Source: Rhizobium sp. CF122 (GTDB taxonomy: Bacteria > Pseudomonadota > Alphaproteobacteria > Rhizobiales > Rhizobiaceae). From it: a stretch of DNA of 64,000 nt. A program made the position numbers and the translations under genes. A model generated the notes under the pieces. The model did no database searches. It had not been told where the DNA came from and was given only the letters and a program-made list of their open reading frames with translations. The stretch covers positions 62,001-126,000 of the forward strand of contig NZ_AKKA01000120.1 in assembly GCF_000282035.1 (NCBI RefSeq), read 5' to 3'. Shown one piece after another: positions 16,260-56,088 of this stretch (position 1 is the stretch's first letter; each line of letters starts with the position of its first letter).

Positions 16260-18095
16260 TTAATATTCCAGCGGCAAGGTCGCATTTTCCAGCCACGCCT
16301 TGACGTCGTGGTCGTGAATCAGCGGCATCAGCGCTTCTCGGGTGCGCTCGTGGTAGCTGTTGAACCAATGCAGCTCGTCATGCGTCAGAAGTTCCGGAAT
16401 AACCAGGCTGCGGTCGATCGGGCAGAAGGTCAGCGTCTCGAATCCGAGCATTGGCATGTCGCCACCGTCGATCGCCTCTGCCTCGCGGACATAGATCAGG
16501 TTCTCGATGCGGATGCCGAAAGCGCCGGGGCGGTAATAGCCGGGCTCGTTCGAGAGGATCATCCCCGGCAAAAGCTCCTGCGTCGAGAGCCTGGCGATGC
16601 GCTGCGGGCCTTCATGCACTGAAAGATAGGACCCGACGCCGTGACCGGTTCCATGGGCAAAATCAACCCCTGCCCGCCAGAGTGCAATGCGGGCAAGCGG
16701 ATCGAGGTCGCATCCGCGCGTGCCCTTCGGAAACCGTGCGGTGCTGATCTGGATCATGCCCTTCAGCACCAGCGTGAAGAAGCGCTTGTGCTCCTCGGTG
16801 ACGGAACCGATGCCGACGGTGCGGGTAATGTCGGTCGTGCCGTTGATGTACTGGGCGCCGGAATCGATCAGGAAGAGTTCCCCGGCCTCCAGCTTGCGGT
16901 TCGTTTCCGTCGTCACGCGATAGTGCATGATAGCCGCGTGCTCGCCGGCTCCGGAGATCGTGTCGAAGGAGATATCCTTCAGCGGGTTCTGCATACTCTG
17001 GCCGACACGGGCGCGTGCCGCTTCCAGCTTCTCCGCCACCTCGATTTCGGTCACGGTCCCCGGCTTGATCTGCGACAGCCAGGAGAGAAATTCGACCATC
17101 GCCGCGCCGTCCTGCAGATGCGCAGCCGCAGAACCGTTGATCTCAACGTTGTTCTTGACAGCTCGCGGAAGCTTTGCGGGATCATTCCCTTCCACGACCT
17201 CGCCACCCCCCTTGCGAATGATCTCCGCCAAGGCATACGAGGTAAGGTCCGGATCCACGACGACTCGACCGCCATCTCTTGCAACAGCGGACAGTTTCCT
17301 TTCGAGTTCCGACGGCGGAAGCTGCATGCACATCTGCGCCAGATAGGCTTCGGCCTCGATACCGGTCTTGCGCTTGTCGAGGAAGAGGTCCGCCTTGCCG
17401 TCGGCATAGATGATCGCACGCGCCAGCGGGTGCGGCGTGTGCGGAACGTCGGCACCGCGAATATTGAAGATCCAGGCGACCGAGGACGGATCGGCGATCA
17501 GCGCCGCCTTGAGGTTCTTCTTTGCAAGATCGGCAGCGATCGTTGCAATCTTGTCGGTCGCGAGCACGCCCGCCTGCACGACGCTCTGGATCATCACCTG
17601 TCCCAGCGGCTCCTGCGGCCGGTCGCTCCAGAGCTTGTCGAGAGGATTGTGAGGCAGGACAACGAGCGAACCGCCAATTTCGGCCAGCGCCTTTTCAAGT
17701 CGCCGCACGTCTGCGCCGGAATGCAGCCAGGGATCGATGCCGAGGCGCAGGCCCTTGGAGCCGTTCTTCGCAAGCCAGGCATGAGGCGGTTCGTTCACAA
17801 GGTCTCCGCCTGTGAAGACGGAACTATCCACTTGCTCGGTAAGTTGCGTCACGTAGCGCCCGTCCACGAAGACAATCGCCTCCGAACGCGTTACCAGCGC
17901 AACGCCCGCAGACCCGGTGAAGCCCGTCAACCACGACAAGCGCTCCGAACAAGCCGGCACGTATTCGCCGTTGAACTCGTCGGCACGCGGCACAAGAAAG
18001 GCGTCGATATCAAGCGCATCAAAACTTGCGCGCAAAGCCGAGACGCGATCGCGGCCGAATTGTGGCGTCGAAGTGACTTCGAAAGACTGGAACAT
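16260..18095 (-). CDS. Aminopeptidase P family metallopeptidase (M24), long form
   Basis: 611 residues, the long form with two creatinase-like N-terminal domains before the catalytic M24 domain. It removes N-terminal residues preceding proline. Metal ligands are visible in LIDSGAQYINGTTDITRT (two Asp), the HGTGHGVGS histidine, NEPGYYRPGAFGIRIENL (two Glu). The ATG at 18095 (MFQSFEVTS) was chosen over a TTG two codons upstream. The C-terminal domain ends with a WFNSYHERTREALMPL motif typical of cytosolic aminopeptidase P1. Confidence 0.93.
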   Translation of the reverse strand: MFQSFEVTSTPQFGRDRVSALRASFDALDIDAFLVPRADEFNGEYVPACSERLSWLTGFTGSAGVALVTRSEAIVFVDGRYVTQLTEQVDSSVFTGGDLVNEPPHAWLAKNGSKGLRLGIDPWLHSGADVRRLEKALAEIGGSLVVLPHNPLDKLWSDRPQEPLGQVMIQSVVQAGVLATDKIATIAADLAKKNLKAALIADPSSVAWIFNIRGADVPHTPHPLARAIIYADGKADLFLDKRKTGIEAEAYLAQMCMQLPPSELERKLSAVARDGGRVVVDPDLTSYALAEIIRKGGGEVVEGNDPAKLPRAVKNNVEINGSAAAHLQDGAAMVEFLSWLSQIKPGTVTEIEVAEKLEAARARVGQSMQNPLKDISFDTISGAGEHAAIMHYRVTTETNRKLEAGELFLIDSGAQYINGTTDITRTVGIGSVTEEHKRFFTLVLKGMIQISTARFPKGTRGCDLDPLARIALWRAGVDFAHGTGHGVGSYLSVHEGPQRIARLSTQELLPGMILSNEPGYYRPGAFGIRIENLIYVREAEAIDGGDMPMLGFETLTFCPIDRSLVIPELLTHDELHWFNSYHERTREALMPLIHDHDVKAWLENATLPLEY

Positions 18096-18242
18096 GTTCA
18101 AGAATCCGGTGTTTTAGGCGAATCCCCTAGGCGAGATTCGGCTATATTATAGGAATTTCAGACGAGTACGAGGAATTCGCGAAGTGACGTATGAGCGAAA
18201 GCCGCGCAATAATCCGGCGGAAATGAGGCGCCGCCTCACAAA

Positions 18243-18265
18243 GTGGCATGCTTTATGCATTCCAC
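18243..18265. promoter_or_regulatory. 23-bp imperfect palindrome upstream of the small-protein gene
   Basis: GTGGCATGC and GCATTCCAC flank TTTAT; the arms match at 8 of 9 positions. It lies 110-130 bases before the start at 18375 and about 150 bases from the start of the divergent aminopeptidase gene, in a good position for a repressor or activator site. A CTATAT -10-like hexamer follows at 18313 but no clear -35 box. The binding protein is unknown. Confidence 0.35.
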
Positions 18266-18374
18266 GCATGGCTCCCATGAACGAAACCCTCTCCCTCAGC
18301 TTTTCTAAATCGCTATATAGGCGCCATCAAACGGGTTCGAGACGAACCTGAAACGAAACAAAAGGAATTTAGAT

Positions 18375-18548
18375 ATGACTGCCCCTCTGTCGCGCTTCGC
18401 TTACAGCAGCCCGGTGCAGGCTGGCGAGCGCCAGACTGTGCGTCACGTCATCGGCTCGCGCCGTCCGCTGCATGAGGACACCCTCAATCTGCTGGGCGCT
18501 GGCCAAAAGGTTACGCGCCATCAGGTCGCAACCAACTACGCGTTCTGA
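18375..18548 (+). CDS. Small protein, 57 residues, unknown function
   Basis: Reads MTAPLSRFAYSS, then VRHVIGSRRPLHEDTLNLLG and ends QVATNYAF. AAGGA lies about 10 bases upstream of the ATG, codon use is normal for the genome, and no gene competes on the other strand. I do not recognise a family; it is basic and soluble with no membrane segment. A short GGTTCG/CGAACC hairpin (18334-18348) is in the leader. The stop codon sits inside the first of two hairpins with CUCCUCCUCC loops, and the transcript ends at a strong terminator, so the ORF and the RNA elements are one unit. Confidence 0.6.
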   Translation: MTAPLSRFAYSSPVQAGERQTVRHVIGSRRPLHEDTLNLLGAGQKVTRHQVATNYAF

Positions 18549-18698
18549 GCAACTCGCCGCTCCCTTCTCCTCCTCCCTCACGGGACCGGCGATCAGAACC
18601 AGTAGAAGCCCGCTCGAGCGCTCCTCCTCCTTCGAGCTCGCGGGCATTGACCGGGAAACTGGTCCAAAGGCGGTGCCATTGGCACCGCCTTTTCTTTT
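18542..18698 (+). ncRNA. Candidate 3'-UTR small RNA with two anti-Shine-Dalgarno hairpin loops
   Basis: Hairpin 1 (18542-18599): GTTCTGA pairs with TCAGAAC, then TCGCCG with CGGCGA and TCCC with GGGA, leaving a loop with CTCCTCCTCCCTC. Hairpin 2 (18608-18645): GCCCGC pairs with GCGGGC and GAGC with GCTC, leaving a loop with CTCCTCCTCC. Both loops complement ribosome-binding sites. A small GACC/GGTC hairpin and a terminator follow. The plan resembles alphaproteobacterial RNAs known for CCUCCUCCC loops (the cuckoo/CcsR RNAs, made from 3' ends of small-protein mRNAs, and the rhizobial alpha-r14/NfeR1 RNAs). Similarity to either family is inferred from layout, not from alignment. Confidence 0.55.
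18666..18698 (+). terminator. Rho-independent terminator after the small-protein/RNA unit
   Basis: GGCGGTGCC and GGCACCGCC form a perfect 9-bp stem around ATT, extended by AAA/TTT, followed by TTTTCTTTT. It is strongest on the plus strand and closes the unit that starts upstream of 18375. The convergent prmA gene ends ten bases further on. Confidence 0.88.
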
Positions 18699-18707
18699 GC
18701 CCTCGCC

Positions 18708-19586
18708 TCAAGGACGATCGAGATGGATCGTCACCCAGCCATTACGCCAGATCGTACGGACGTGCCGCAAATGCGCACCGTTATAGGCCGCCAGCACCTT
18801 CCAACGCTGCGCAGCCAGAATGCCGGAAAGAATGACCGAGCCCCCGGGCGCCAAGTGGGTCACGAGTTGCGGCGCCATCTTGATCAAGGGCCGCGCCAGG
18901 ATGTTGGCGATAATCAGATCGAAGGGGCCATGCGCGCAAAGGGCGGTCGAGTGAAAACCTGGCGCCGTCTCTGTGGCGATACCCGACGCAATGCCGTTGC
19001 GCCGAACATTCTCGGCAGCGACCCGCGTCGCGATCGGGTCAATGTCCGTTGCGAGAACAGGAATGTTCCGCAGCTTCCTGACAGCAATCGCCAGAACGCC
19101 GCTGCCGGTTCCGAGATCAAGCGCATTCCGCACCCGGCGGGAACGCAAGACACGGTCGATCGTCTCCAGGCAGCCTGCCGTCGTGCCGTGATGACCTGTA
19201 CCGAAAGCCTGGCCGGCATCGATCTCGATCGCAATATCGCCGGACCGCACCTTGTCGCGGTCGTGCGATCCGTGGACCAGAAAGCGCCCCGCCCGAACCG
19301 GCGTCAGCCCCTCAAGTGACTTCGCCACCCAATCGACCTCGGGAATCACTTCGCGCTCGACTTTGGCCTCGGGAAAGCTCACCTTCAGCGCTTCCTCGAC
19401 GCGCGCGCGAACCTGTAGTTCTTCTTCGCGCATCATGTAGACCGAGGCTTCCCAAATATCCTTCTTCTCATCGATCTCAGTGGTCGCGATTGCGAAGTCT
19501 TCTTCGCCGAAAACATCGGACAGCAGATCCAGAATCTCTCCTGCCTGCACTTCGGTCGTCGTCACATAAAGGCGTATTTCACTCAC
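18708..19586 (-). CDS. prmA: Ribosomal protein L11 methyltransferase
   Basis: 292 residues. Uses S-adenosylmethionine to trimethylate lysines and the N-terminus of ribosomal protein L11. The N-terminal ferredoxin-like substrate domain is followed by the Rossmann methyltransferase fold with DAGQAFGTGHHGTT, DLGTGSGVLAIA (motif I) and FDLIIANILARPL (NxLAxPL-type motif IV). Length fits the family. Followed downstream by the terminator region of the convergent small-RNA unit; 14 bases after the FAD monooxygenase gene, so likely co-transcribed with it. Confidence 0.95.
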   Translation of the reverse strand: MSEIRLYVTTTEVQAGEILDLLSDVFGEEDFAIATTEIDEKKDIWEASVYMMREEELQVRARVEEALKVSFPEAKVEREVIPEVDWVAKSLEGLTPVRAGRFLVHGSHDRDKVRSGDIAIEIDAGQAFGTGHHGTTAGCLETIDRVLRSRRVRNALDLGTGSGVLAIAVRKLRNIPVLATDIDPIATRVAAENVRRNGIASGIATETAPGFHSTALCAHGPFDLIIANILARPLIKMAPQLVTHLAPGGSVILSGILAAQRWKVLAAYNGAHLRHVRTIWRNGWVTIHLDRP

Positions 19587-55655: not shown

Positions 55656-55691
55656 CGGCAATGCCGGAACCCTCATTTCGCAAAGGGAATT

Positions 55692-56088
55692 CGCCAGTTG
55701 GCCTGTAAGCCGGGTTCTGTATGGCCCCGGCCGAAGCCGGAACGTGGCAGCCATTCCTCTGGGACAACGTTCGCACGCTGCCTCACGCAACCCACCCGGA
55801 TGACTGACCTGGAAACCGGCCGAAAGGCTTTCGCCTCCCACGTCATCCCTATTCGGTCTTGCTCCCGGTGGGGTTTACCTTGCCATCGCCGTTACCGGAA
55901 ATGCGGTGGGCTCTTACCCCACCCTTTCACCCTTACCTGCCGTGCAGGCGGTTTGCTTTCTGTGGCACTTTCCCTGAGGTCGCCCTCGCCGGACGTTATC
56001 CGGCACCGTGTTTCCGTGGAGCCCGGACTTTCCTCACCCTACCGCCTTTCGGCATTGGTAAAGCGCGGCTGCCCGGCCAACTGGCACG
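55692..56088 (-). ncRNA. rnpB: RNase P RNA, class A
   Basis: Catalytic RNA that trims the 5' leader of tRNA precursors. On the minus strand the P1 helix closes: 5' AGTTGGCC (56075-56082) pairs with 3' GGCCAACT (55696-55703). The hallmark P4/J3-4 sequence GAGGAAAGTCCGGGCTCC lies after the 5' end, and ACAGAACCCGGCTTAC near the 3' end. Size of about 400 nt fits alphaproteobacteria. It is between the small CxxC gene and the flavoprotein gene. Ends are estimated within a few bases. Confidence 0.95.

Follow-up and report, generated by a model that had tools for sequence, protein, structure and literature searches.

How does a messenger RNA turn into a regulatory RNA? Regulatory RNAs are often supposed to originate at the 3' ends of mRNAs and, to our knowledge, the intermediate states of such a transition are seldom preserved. 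The question is raised by a locus in the window (the whole 64,000-nucleotide stretch of Rhizobium sp. CF122 DNA analysed here), where a small-protein gene ends in hairpins whose loops are complementary to Shine-Dalgarno (SD) sites. Is this a dual coding and regulatory RNA, and which states does the same locus take in related genomes?

From the sequence, the list of open reading frames (ORFs) and folding, we delimited a single plus-strand unit between two genes that we take, from their sequences, to be pepP-like and prmA-like (Table 1). The unit consists, from 5' to 3', of a promoter region, a leader hairpin, a 57-codon ORF, two CUCCUCCUCC-loop hairpins, a third hairpin and a terminator. An earlier sequence-only reading of this DNA had described the ORF with its ribosome-binding site, the leader hairpin and the terminator, all of which were recovered; it did not include the third hairpin, the promoter motif of LsrB type, the synteny with pepP and prmA, or the ORF-less orthologs that carry the loops.

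Table 1. Features of the locus and of the window, with positions in the window. Promoter positions are counted from a start site near 18326, inferred from the predicted -10 element.
Feature	Position	Strand	Basis
pepP-like aminopeptidase P gene, upstream flank	16260-18101	-	ORF; synteny by tblastn
TGGCATGCTTTATGC, with sigma-54 -24/-12 spacing (GG-N10-GC), overlapping the LsrB-type motif	18244-18258		conservation in Rhizobium
LsrB-type motif TGCA-N6-GCAT (LysR T-N11-A box), inferred -70 to -57	18256-18269	+	pattern conservation
Overlapping VtlR/LsrB-type box GCATGGCTCCCAT, one mismatch to GCAT-N3-TG-N3-T, inferred -60 to -48	18266-18278	+	consensus comparison
Predicted -10 CTATAT; no good -35	18313-18318	+	upstream alignment
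Leader hairpin GGTTCG-AGA-CGAACC	18334-18348	+	folding; pattern in 68/72 Rhizobium loci
Ribosome-binding site AAAAGGAA	18360-18367	+	AAGGA in 72/72 Rhizobium loci
Small protein, 57 aa	18375-18548	+	ORF; pN/pS; profile match to wider family
Hairpin 1, loop UUCUCCUCCUCCCUCAC	18554-18592 (loop 18565-18581)	+	folding of 18546-18698
Hairpin 2, loop GCUCCUCCUCCUUCGA	18608-18645 (loop 18620-18635)	+	folding; double-sided pair changes
Third hairpin GACCGG-GAAA-CUGGUC	18649-18664	+	folding; in most aligned relatives
Intrinsic terminator (hairpin 18666-18692 and U-run)	18666-18698	+	folding; pattern in 72/72 Rhizobium loci
prmA-like gene (ribosomal protein L11 methyltransferase), convergent downstream flank	18708-19586	-	ORF; synteny by tblastn
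Bacterial RNase P RNA, class A	55690-56084	-	Rfam, 313.5 bits

The 3' part of the unit (18546-18698) folds at -65.1 kcal/mol (z -4.1), a stability reached by 0 of 200 shuffles, and the loops of hairpins 1 and 2 are unpaired also in the 369-nt fold of 18330-18698. The two separate hairpins with SD-complementary loops that had been read from the sequence thus stand, with one correction: hairpin 1 had been drawn at 18542-18599, but its outer pairs form only with upstream bases in the fold. Counting both strands, CTCCTCC occurs 11 times in the window (9 plus, 2 minus), and all four sites of the two loops lie in hairpin loops, versus one of the seven others. We compared the locus with 71 others obtained by a protein search of named Rhizobium genomes, and the ORF is intact, both loop motifs are kept and the terminator pattern is present in all 72. 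In the 45 aligned sequences of this set, 6 of the 10 pairs of hairpin 2 are changed on both sides, as is 1 of the 11 pairs of the terminator. The MAFFT alignment (A2) mis-registers hairpin 1, which was therefore judged by single-sequence folds; these show its stem rewritten between clades around a constant loop motif. Two of the three outcomes that the sequence-only reading had named against itself, stems free of compensatory changes and loops that are not conserved, thus did not occur. The third hairpin, found in most aligned relatives, is absent in L082. A third CCUCCUCC loop occurs in L082/L154, L181, L182 and L185; in L082 it lies inside the terminator hairpin itself, like in ar14.

Hairpins of this kind could also have been copied from an ar14 locus rather than made anew, the locus being then a diverged ar14/cuckoo copy. 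The loop motif is common to both, five ar14 copies in the genome exceed the Rfam cut-off, and our covariance model R1 (hairpin 2 to terminator) weakly matches some ar14 copies (29.5 bits for L075). Yet the Rfam search that had been proposed placed the locus in neither family, with 23.9 bits for ar14 (RF02344; cut-off 58.8) and 13.5 bits for CcsR1 (RF02791; cut-off 65.3). At the cut-offs, RNase P was the only Rfam match in the window and 12 orthologous loci gave none, and stems, spacing and synteny differ from those of ar14. We thus consider descent from an ar14 copy unlikely, while giving it some weight.

The region upstream of the ORF is strongly conserved in the Rhizobium alignment. The pattern TGC-N7-GCAT is found in 72/72 loci, its strict form TGCA-N6-GCAT in 67, and a TATA correctly spaced from the box in 71. 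The exact GCAT-N3-TG-N3-T consensus occurs upstream in only 9 of the 72 loci and its local variant in 71. In Sinorhizobium meliloti, LsrB is reported to activate the NfeR1 promoter and to bind it at a TGCA-N6-GCAT located at -72 to -57 (PMC10746234), and PabcR1 has an LsrB/VtlR box GCAT-N3-TG-N3-T at -61 to -49 (PMC8844928, PMC7486931). The motif and its predicted position at our locus match the LsrB site reported for the NfeR1 sRNA promoter. The same genome has an lsrB-like gene adjoining trxB and two abcR copies, an order described for Agrobacterium (PMC7486931). A search with the pattern GCATGGCWCCCATG returned one exact site, the window's own, and many with mismatches; no regulon was drawn from it because the reversed-pattern control is unfair for coding DNA.

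The regulator might instead be sigma-54, or yet another one. In Rhizobium, TGGCAYGCTTTATGC fits the GG-N10-GC spacing, a sigma-54-like TGGCAYG-N4-WTGC overlaps the LsrB-type box, which, like the rarity of the exact VtlR consensus, counts against the LsrB reading, and the -35 region is poor. The sigma-54-like extension is, however, not seen in several other genera, where TGC-N7-GCAT and the GCWCCCAT that follows it are present, and we hold a regulator other than LsrB to be rather improbable. Beyond the Rhizobium set, 54 of 56 distinct loci carry the pattern of the promoter box. LsrB-type boxes also precede coding-only Rhizobiaceae orthologs (e.g., L264, L270, L274), and control by such a box thus seems older than the loops.

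What would the loops bind? NfeR1 and AbcR1, both targets of LsrB, are reported to block translation by pairing with SD sites, and the use of such motifs by NfeR1 and AbcR on the start regions of mRNAs (PMC10746234, PMC8844928, PMC7143759) speaks against loops that act as a sponge or decoy for other RNAs or for a protein. Loop pairing alone names no partner, which leaves such a role a small chance. The unit itself has AAGGA before its start codon in all Rhizobium loci and GGAGG in 0/72. Its best duplex with the loops reaches -5.3 kcal/mol, and 37 of 42 window ORFs, whose start choice is biased to strong SD sites, pair at least as well. Since its own ribosome-binding site pairs weakly with its own loops, the unit may escape its own repression.

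The small protein is conserved as a protein. Pooled pN/pS over 65 equal-length ORFs is 0.31 for all codons and 0.12 for the first 31, and the peptide is therefore under selection. It belongs to no Pfam or NCBIfam family; DUF1127 (PF06568) matches none of nine proteins, that of the window included, at E<=10, and at the Pfam gathering score neither the window protein nor seven of the eight other proteins concerned give a match. The few names returned for proteins of relatives (ARMC9_ARM, DUF6483), all sub-threshold, were discarded. Profile comparison gives another picture of the family at large: the Rhizobium alignment (A1) matches the wider family (A4) over its full length (97%), and A4 matches the DUF1127 proteins of the same genome over 30 columns (96%), versus no match (0.4%) for A1 alone. 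The earlier statement that the protein is not DUF1127 thus holds for the Pfam and NCBIfam models and for the Rhizobium profile, whereas the wider family matches DUF1127 in profile comparison; the protein is best called a remote DUF1127 relative. We found no relative of solved structure, and an AlphaFold run on A1 (mean pLDDT 56) gave no useful information. CcaF1, a DUF1127 protein of Rhodobacter, helps in the maturation of the CcsR RNAs that share its transcript (PMC10253847); a similar maturation role here is only an idea.

The distribution of the locus was established with R1 (hit threshold E<=0.01), which matches 88 of 297 Rhizobiaceae genomes, in 43 of 109 genera. In the genome of the window it also gives two overlapping weak matches on opposite strands (C69:1074-1194, 28 bits). 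We examined 66 further hits (L131-L196), beyond the closest four, and pepP and/or prmA flank 56 of them in the same orientation, with both genes in 47 (tblastn). The ten weak hits lacking both neighbours (E 5.7e-5 to 1.6e-3) were left out of the tree. Among the 56, three repeat earlier loci, L190 has only a short motif and L178 a single loop; these last two, each with one CCTCC loop motif and an unclear ORF, were excluded from the counts of changes.

These loci fall into more than one state. The family ORF precedes the loops in 16 distinct loci outside Rhizobium, of which ten have at least two loops in the scanned part, three (L081-L083) have the second loop just outside it, and three (L163, L174, L180) have a single loop motif. 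In 38 other Rhizobiaceae loci we found no family ORF between the box and the first loop, and both loop motifs are kept; local folding gives at least two CCTCC hairpin loops in 36 of them, and in the remaining two both motifs are still there. The promoter box is retained in 37 of the 38, and its distance to the first loop shrinks from roughly 290-350 nt with the ORF to roughly 105-190 nt without it. The predicted RNA of the ORF-less loci has a median length of 208.5 nt (32 of 38 loci gave a length; the start-site rule, box + 61, fails for L157). Some of these loci have reading frames of more than 45 codons that extend across the hairpins and are, by eye, unlike the family. The absence of the ORF rests on this inspection and on profile A4, which at E<=0.01 has no match anywhere in 33 of the 38 genomes and is an imperfect detector (the ORF-bearing L131/G250 escapes it, and the protein of the window is detected at no better than E 0.003). 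A4 matches five of these genomes: G057, G094 and G106 at 0.0015-0.009, and G103 and G100 at about 5e-10 and 7e-10, the match in G103 being on another contig than the ORF-less locus.

The remaining state is found also outside the Rhizobiaceae. In the other families of the order we read 29 loci, all found by A4 and hence through the small ORF, which all of them carry; both flanking genes are present in 25 of them, a single one in 3 and neither in 1. There is no CCTCC within 227 nt downstream in 22 of the 29; among the seven that have one, it lies in a hairpin loop in L245 and L254, and no locus has two such loops. The coding-only relatives L259, L260 and L263 have a single TCCTCCC about 35 nt past the stop codon, possibly an early or a chance form of the loop. 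These states also bear on whether the unit is an ordinary small-protein mRNA, with hairpins that only stabilise or terminate it and CUCCUCC loops that are incidental. An ORF under purifying selection and a terminator placed after the hairpins suit such an mRNA, but loops that outlast the ORF in 38 loci, and loop letters that stay constant though the stems are rewritten, make it very improbable.

We placed the states on a tree of PrmA and part of PepP (84 rows, a sample of the examined hits, with some long branches). The loops need two changes, one gain (branch support 99) and one reversal, and the ORF needs seven, four of them forced by starred branches. The reversal is in L268 (G204), a loop-less coding ortholog within the loop-bearing clade that has apparently lost its loops. 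A single clade of the 38 ORF-less rows is rejected (p-AU 0.0016; the grouping was set before the final tree but after an earlier FastTree run). The tree fits a history in which the loops were gained once and reversed once and the ORF was lost repeatedly. Change counts alone give no direction, but repeated gain of the ORF is scarcely credible given that the coding loci form one homologous family, present at the same site in other families of the order too. Since several relatives have lost the protein and kept the promoter signal and the loops, the change from protein gene to regulatory RNA seems to have occurred on more than one occasion. On balance, we think it more likely than not that one orthologous locus exists in three states: a LysR-controlled small-protein gene, a dual mRNA whose 3' UTR carries anti-SD loops, and an ORF-less sRNA, the last step having been taken several times.

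Our reading of the locus, to which we give a probability of roughly three in four, is that of an LsrB-activated dual RNA whose 3' part blocks SD sites, with loops added in one Rhizobiaceae lineage and an ORF lost in several descendants. Activated by LsrB, the locus between pepP and prmA would make a single RNA of some 370 nt. Translation of the 5' half of this RNA would give the 57-residue protein, whose family is a remote relative of DUF1127, and the 3' part would act either while still joined to the mRNA or, after processing, as a fragment of some 150 nt. By analogy with known RNAs, the two CUCCUCC loops would pair with the SD sites of many mRNAs and block their translation. The ancestral locus would have been a protein gene, to which the loops were added once, and loss of the ORF would have left stand-alone sRNAs of about 200 nt behind the same promoter box. 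The proposal of a dual coding and regulatory RNA made from the sequence is thus borne out for the coding ORF (pN/pS 0.31), the conserved SD-complementary loops, the compensatory stems and the single predicted transcript; transcription itself, control by LsrB, processing and the repression of mRNAs we infer.

If this reading is true, the locus resolves, as a natural series behind a promoter that did not change, the passage from mRNA to regulatory RNA, and it adds a new branch to the anti-SD RNAs controlled by LsrB. With coding, dual and RNA-only orthologs at one syntenic site, the order of the steps and the separate roles of peptide and RNA become testable in rhizobia. The locus would also add a further broad SD-blocking RNA to the LsrB targets AbcR1 and NfeR1, and LsrB would be a hub of translation control in rhizobia. 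Anti-SD loop RNAs, their origin in 3' UTRs and control by LsrB are each already known. Their combination at this locus, in which the pairing of peptide and loops had been thought possibly new, was not found in the literature searched, nor was any paper on the locus or on a series of coding, dual and RNA-only orthologs; most subscription journals lie outside that literature, and such work may be published there.

Several known systems share parts of this organisation. Small protein genes under LsrB/VtlR are described for VtlR-activated atu1667, BAB1_0914, BAB2_0512 and BAB2_0574 (PMC7486931, PMC12595884), which we compared by description; the authors leave open whether atu1667 acts as protein or RNA (PMC7486931), and the Brucella proteins are called DUF1127; the descriptions compared mention no anti-SD loops. 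SmelA075 and SmelA099 of S. meliloti have CCUCCUCCC-loop hairpins with variable stems like ours, but three and four of them, and no small ORF is described in the accessible part of the report (PMC3927594). The ar14/NfeR1 RNAs have CUCCUCC-type loops and an LsrB-dependent promoter with TGCA-N6-GCAT (PMC10746234), a dependence that is only predicted here. They carry the anti-SD motif in all three of their hairpin loops (PMC7143759), whereas the locus in the window has it in two of four hairpins, is linked to an ORF and scores below the ar14 cut-off. CcsR1-4/cuckoo with ccaF1 (CIN1) are also anti-SD-loop RNAs that derive from a 3' UTR, that of a small-protein gene (PMC10253847, PMC8625941). A CIN1-like locus also occurs in Rhizobium: on contig C109 of the genome of the window (loci L113, L075 and L228), an ar14 cluster with four CCUCC-loop hairpins comes after a DUF1127 gene; an LsrB-type box, GCATGGGTGGCGT, precedes the gene, and a near match to such a box precedes the ar14. 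CIN1 itself is described as having four separate CcsR RNAs, an RpoHI/HII promoter and a DUF1127 protein, whereas the locus between pepP and prmA has two loops and an LsrB-type box, and its protein falls outside the DUF1127 model.
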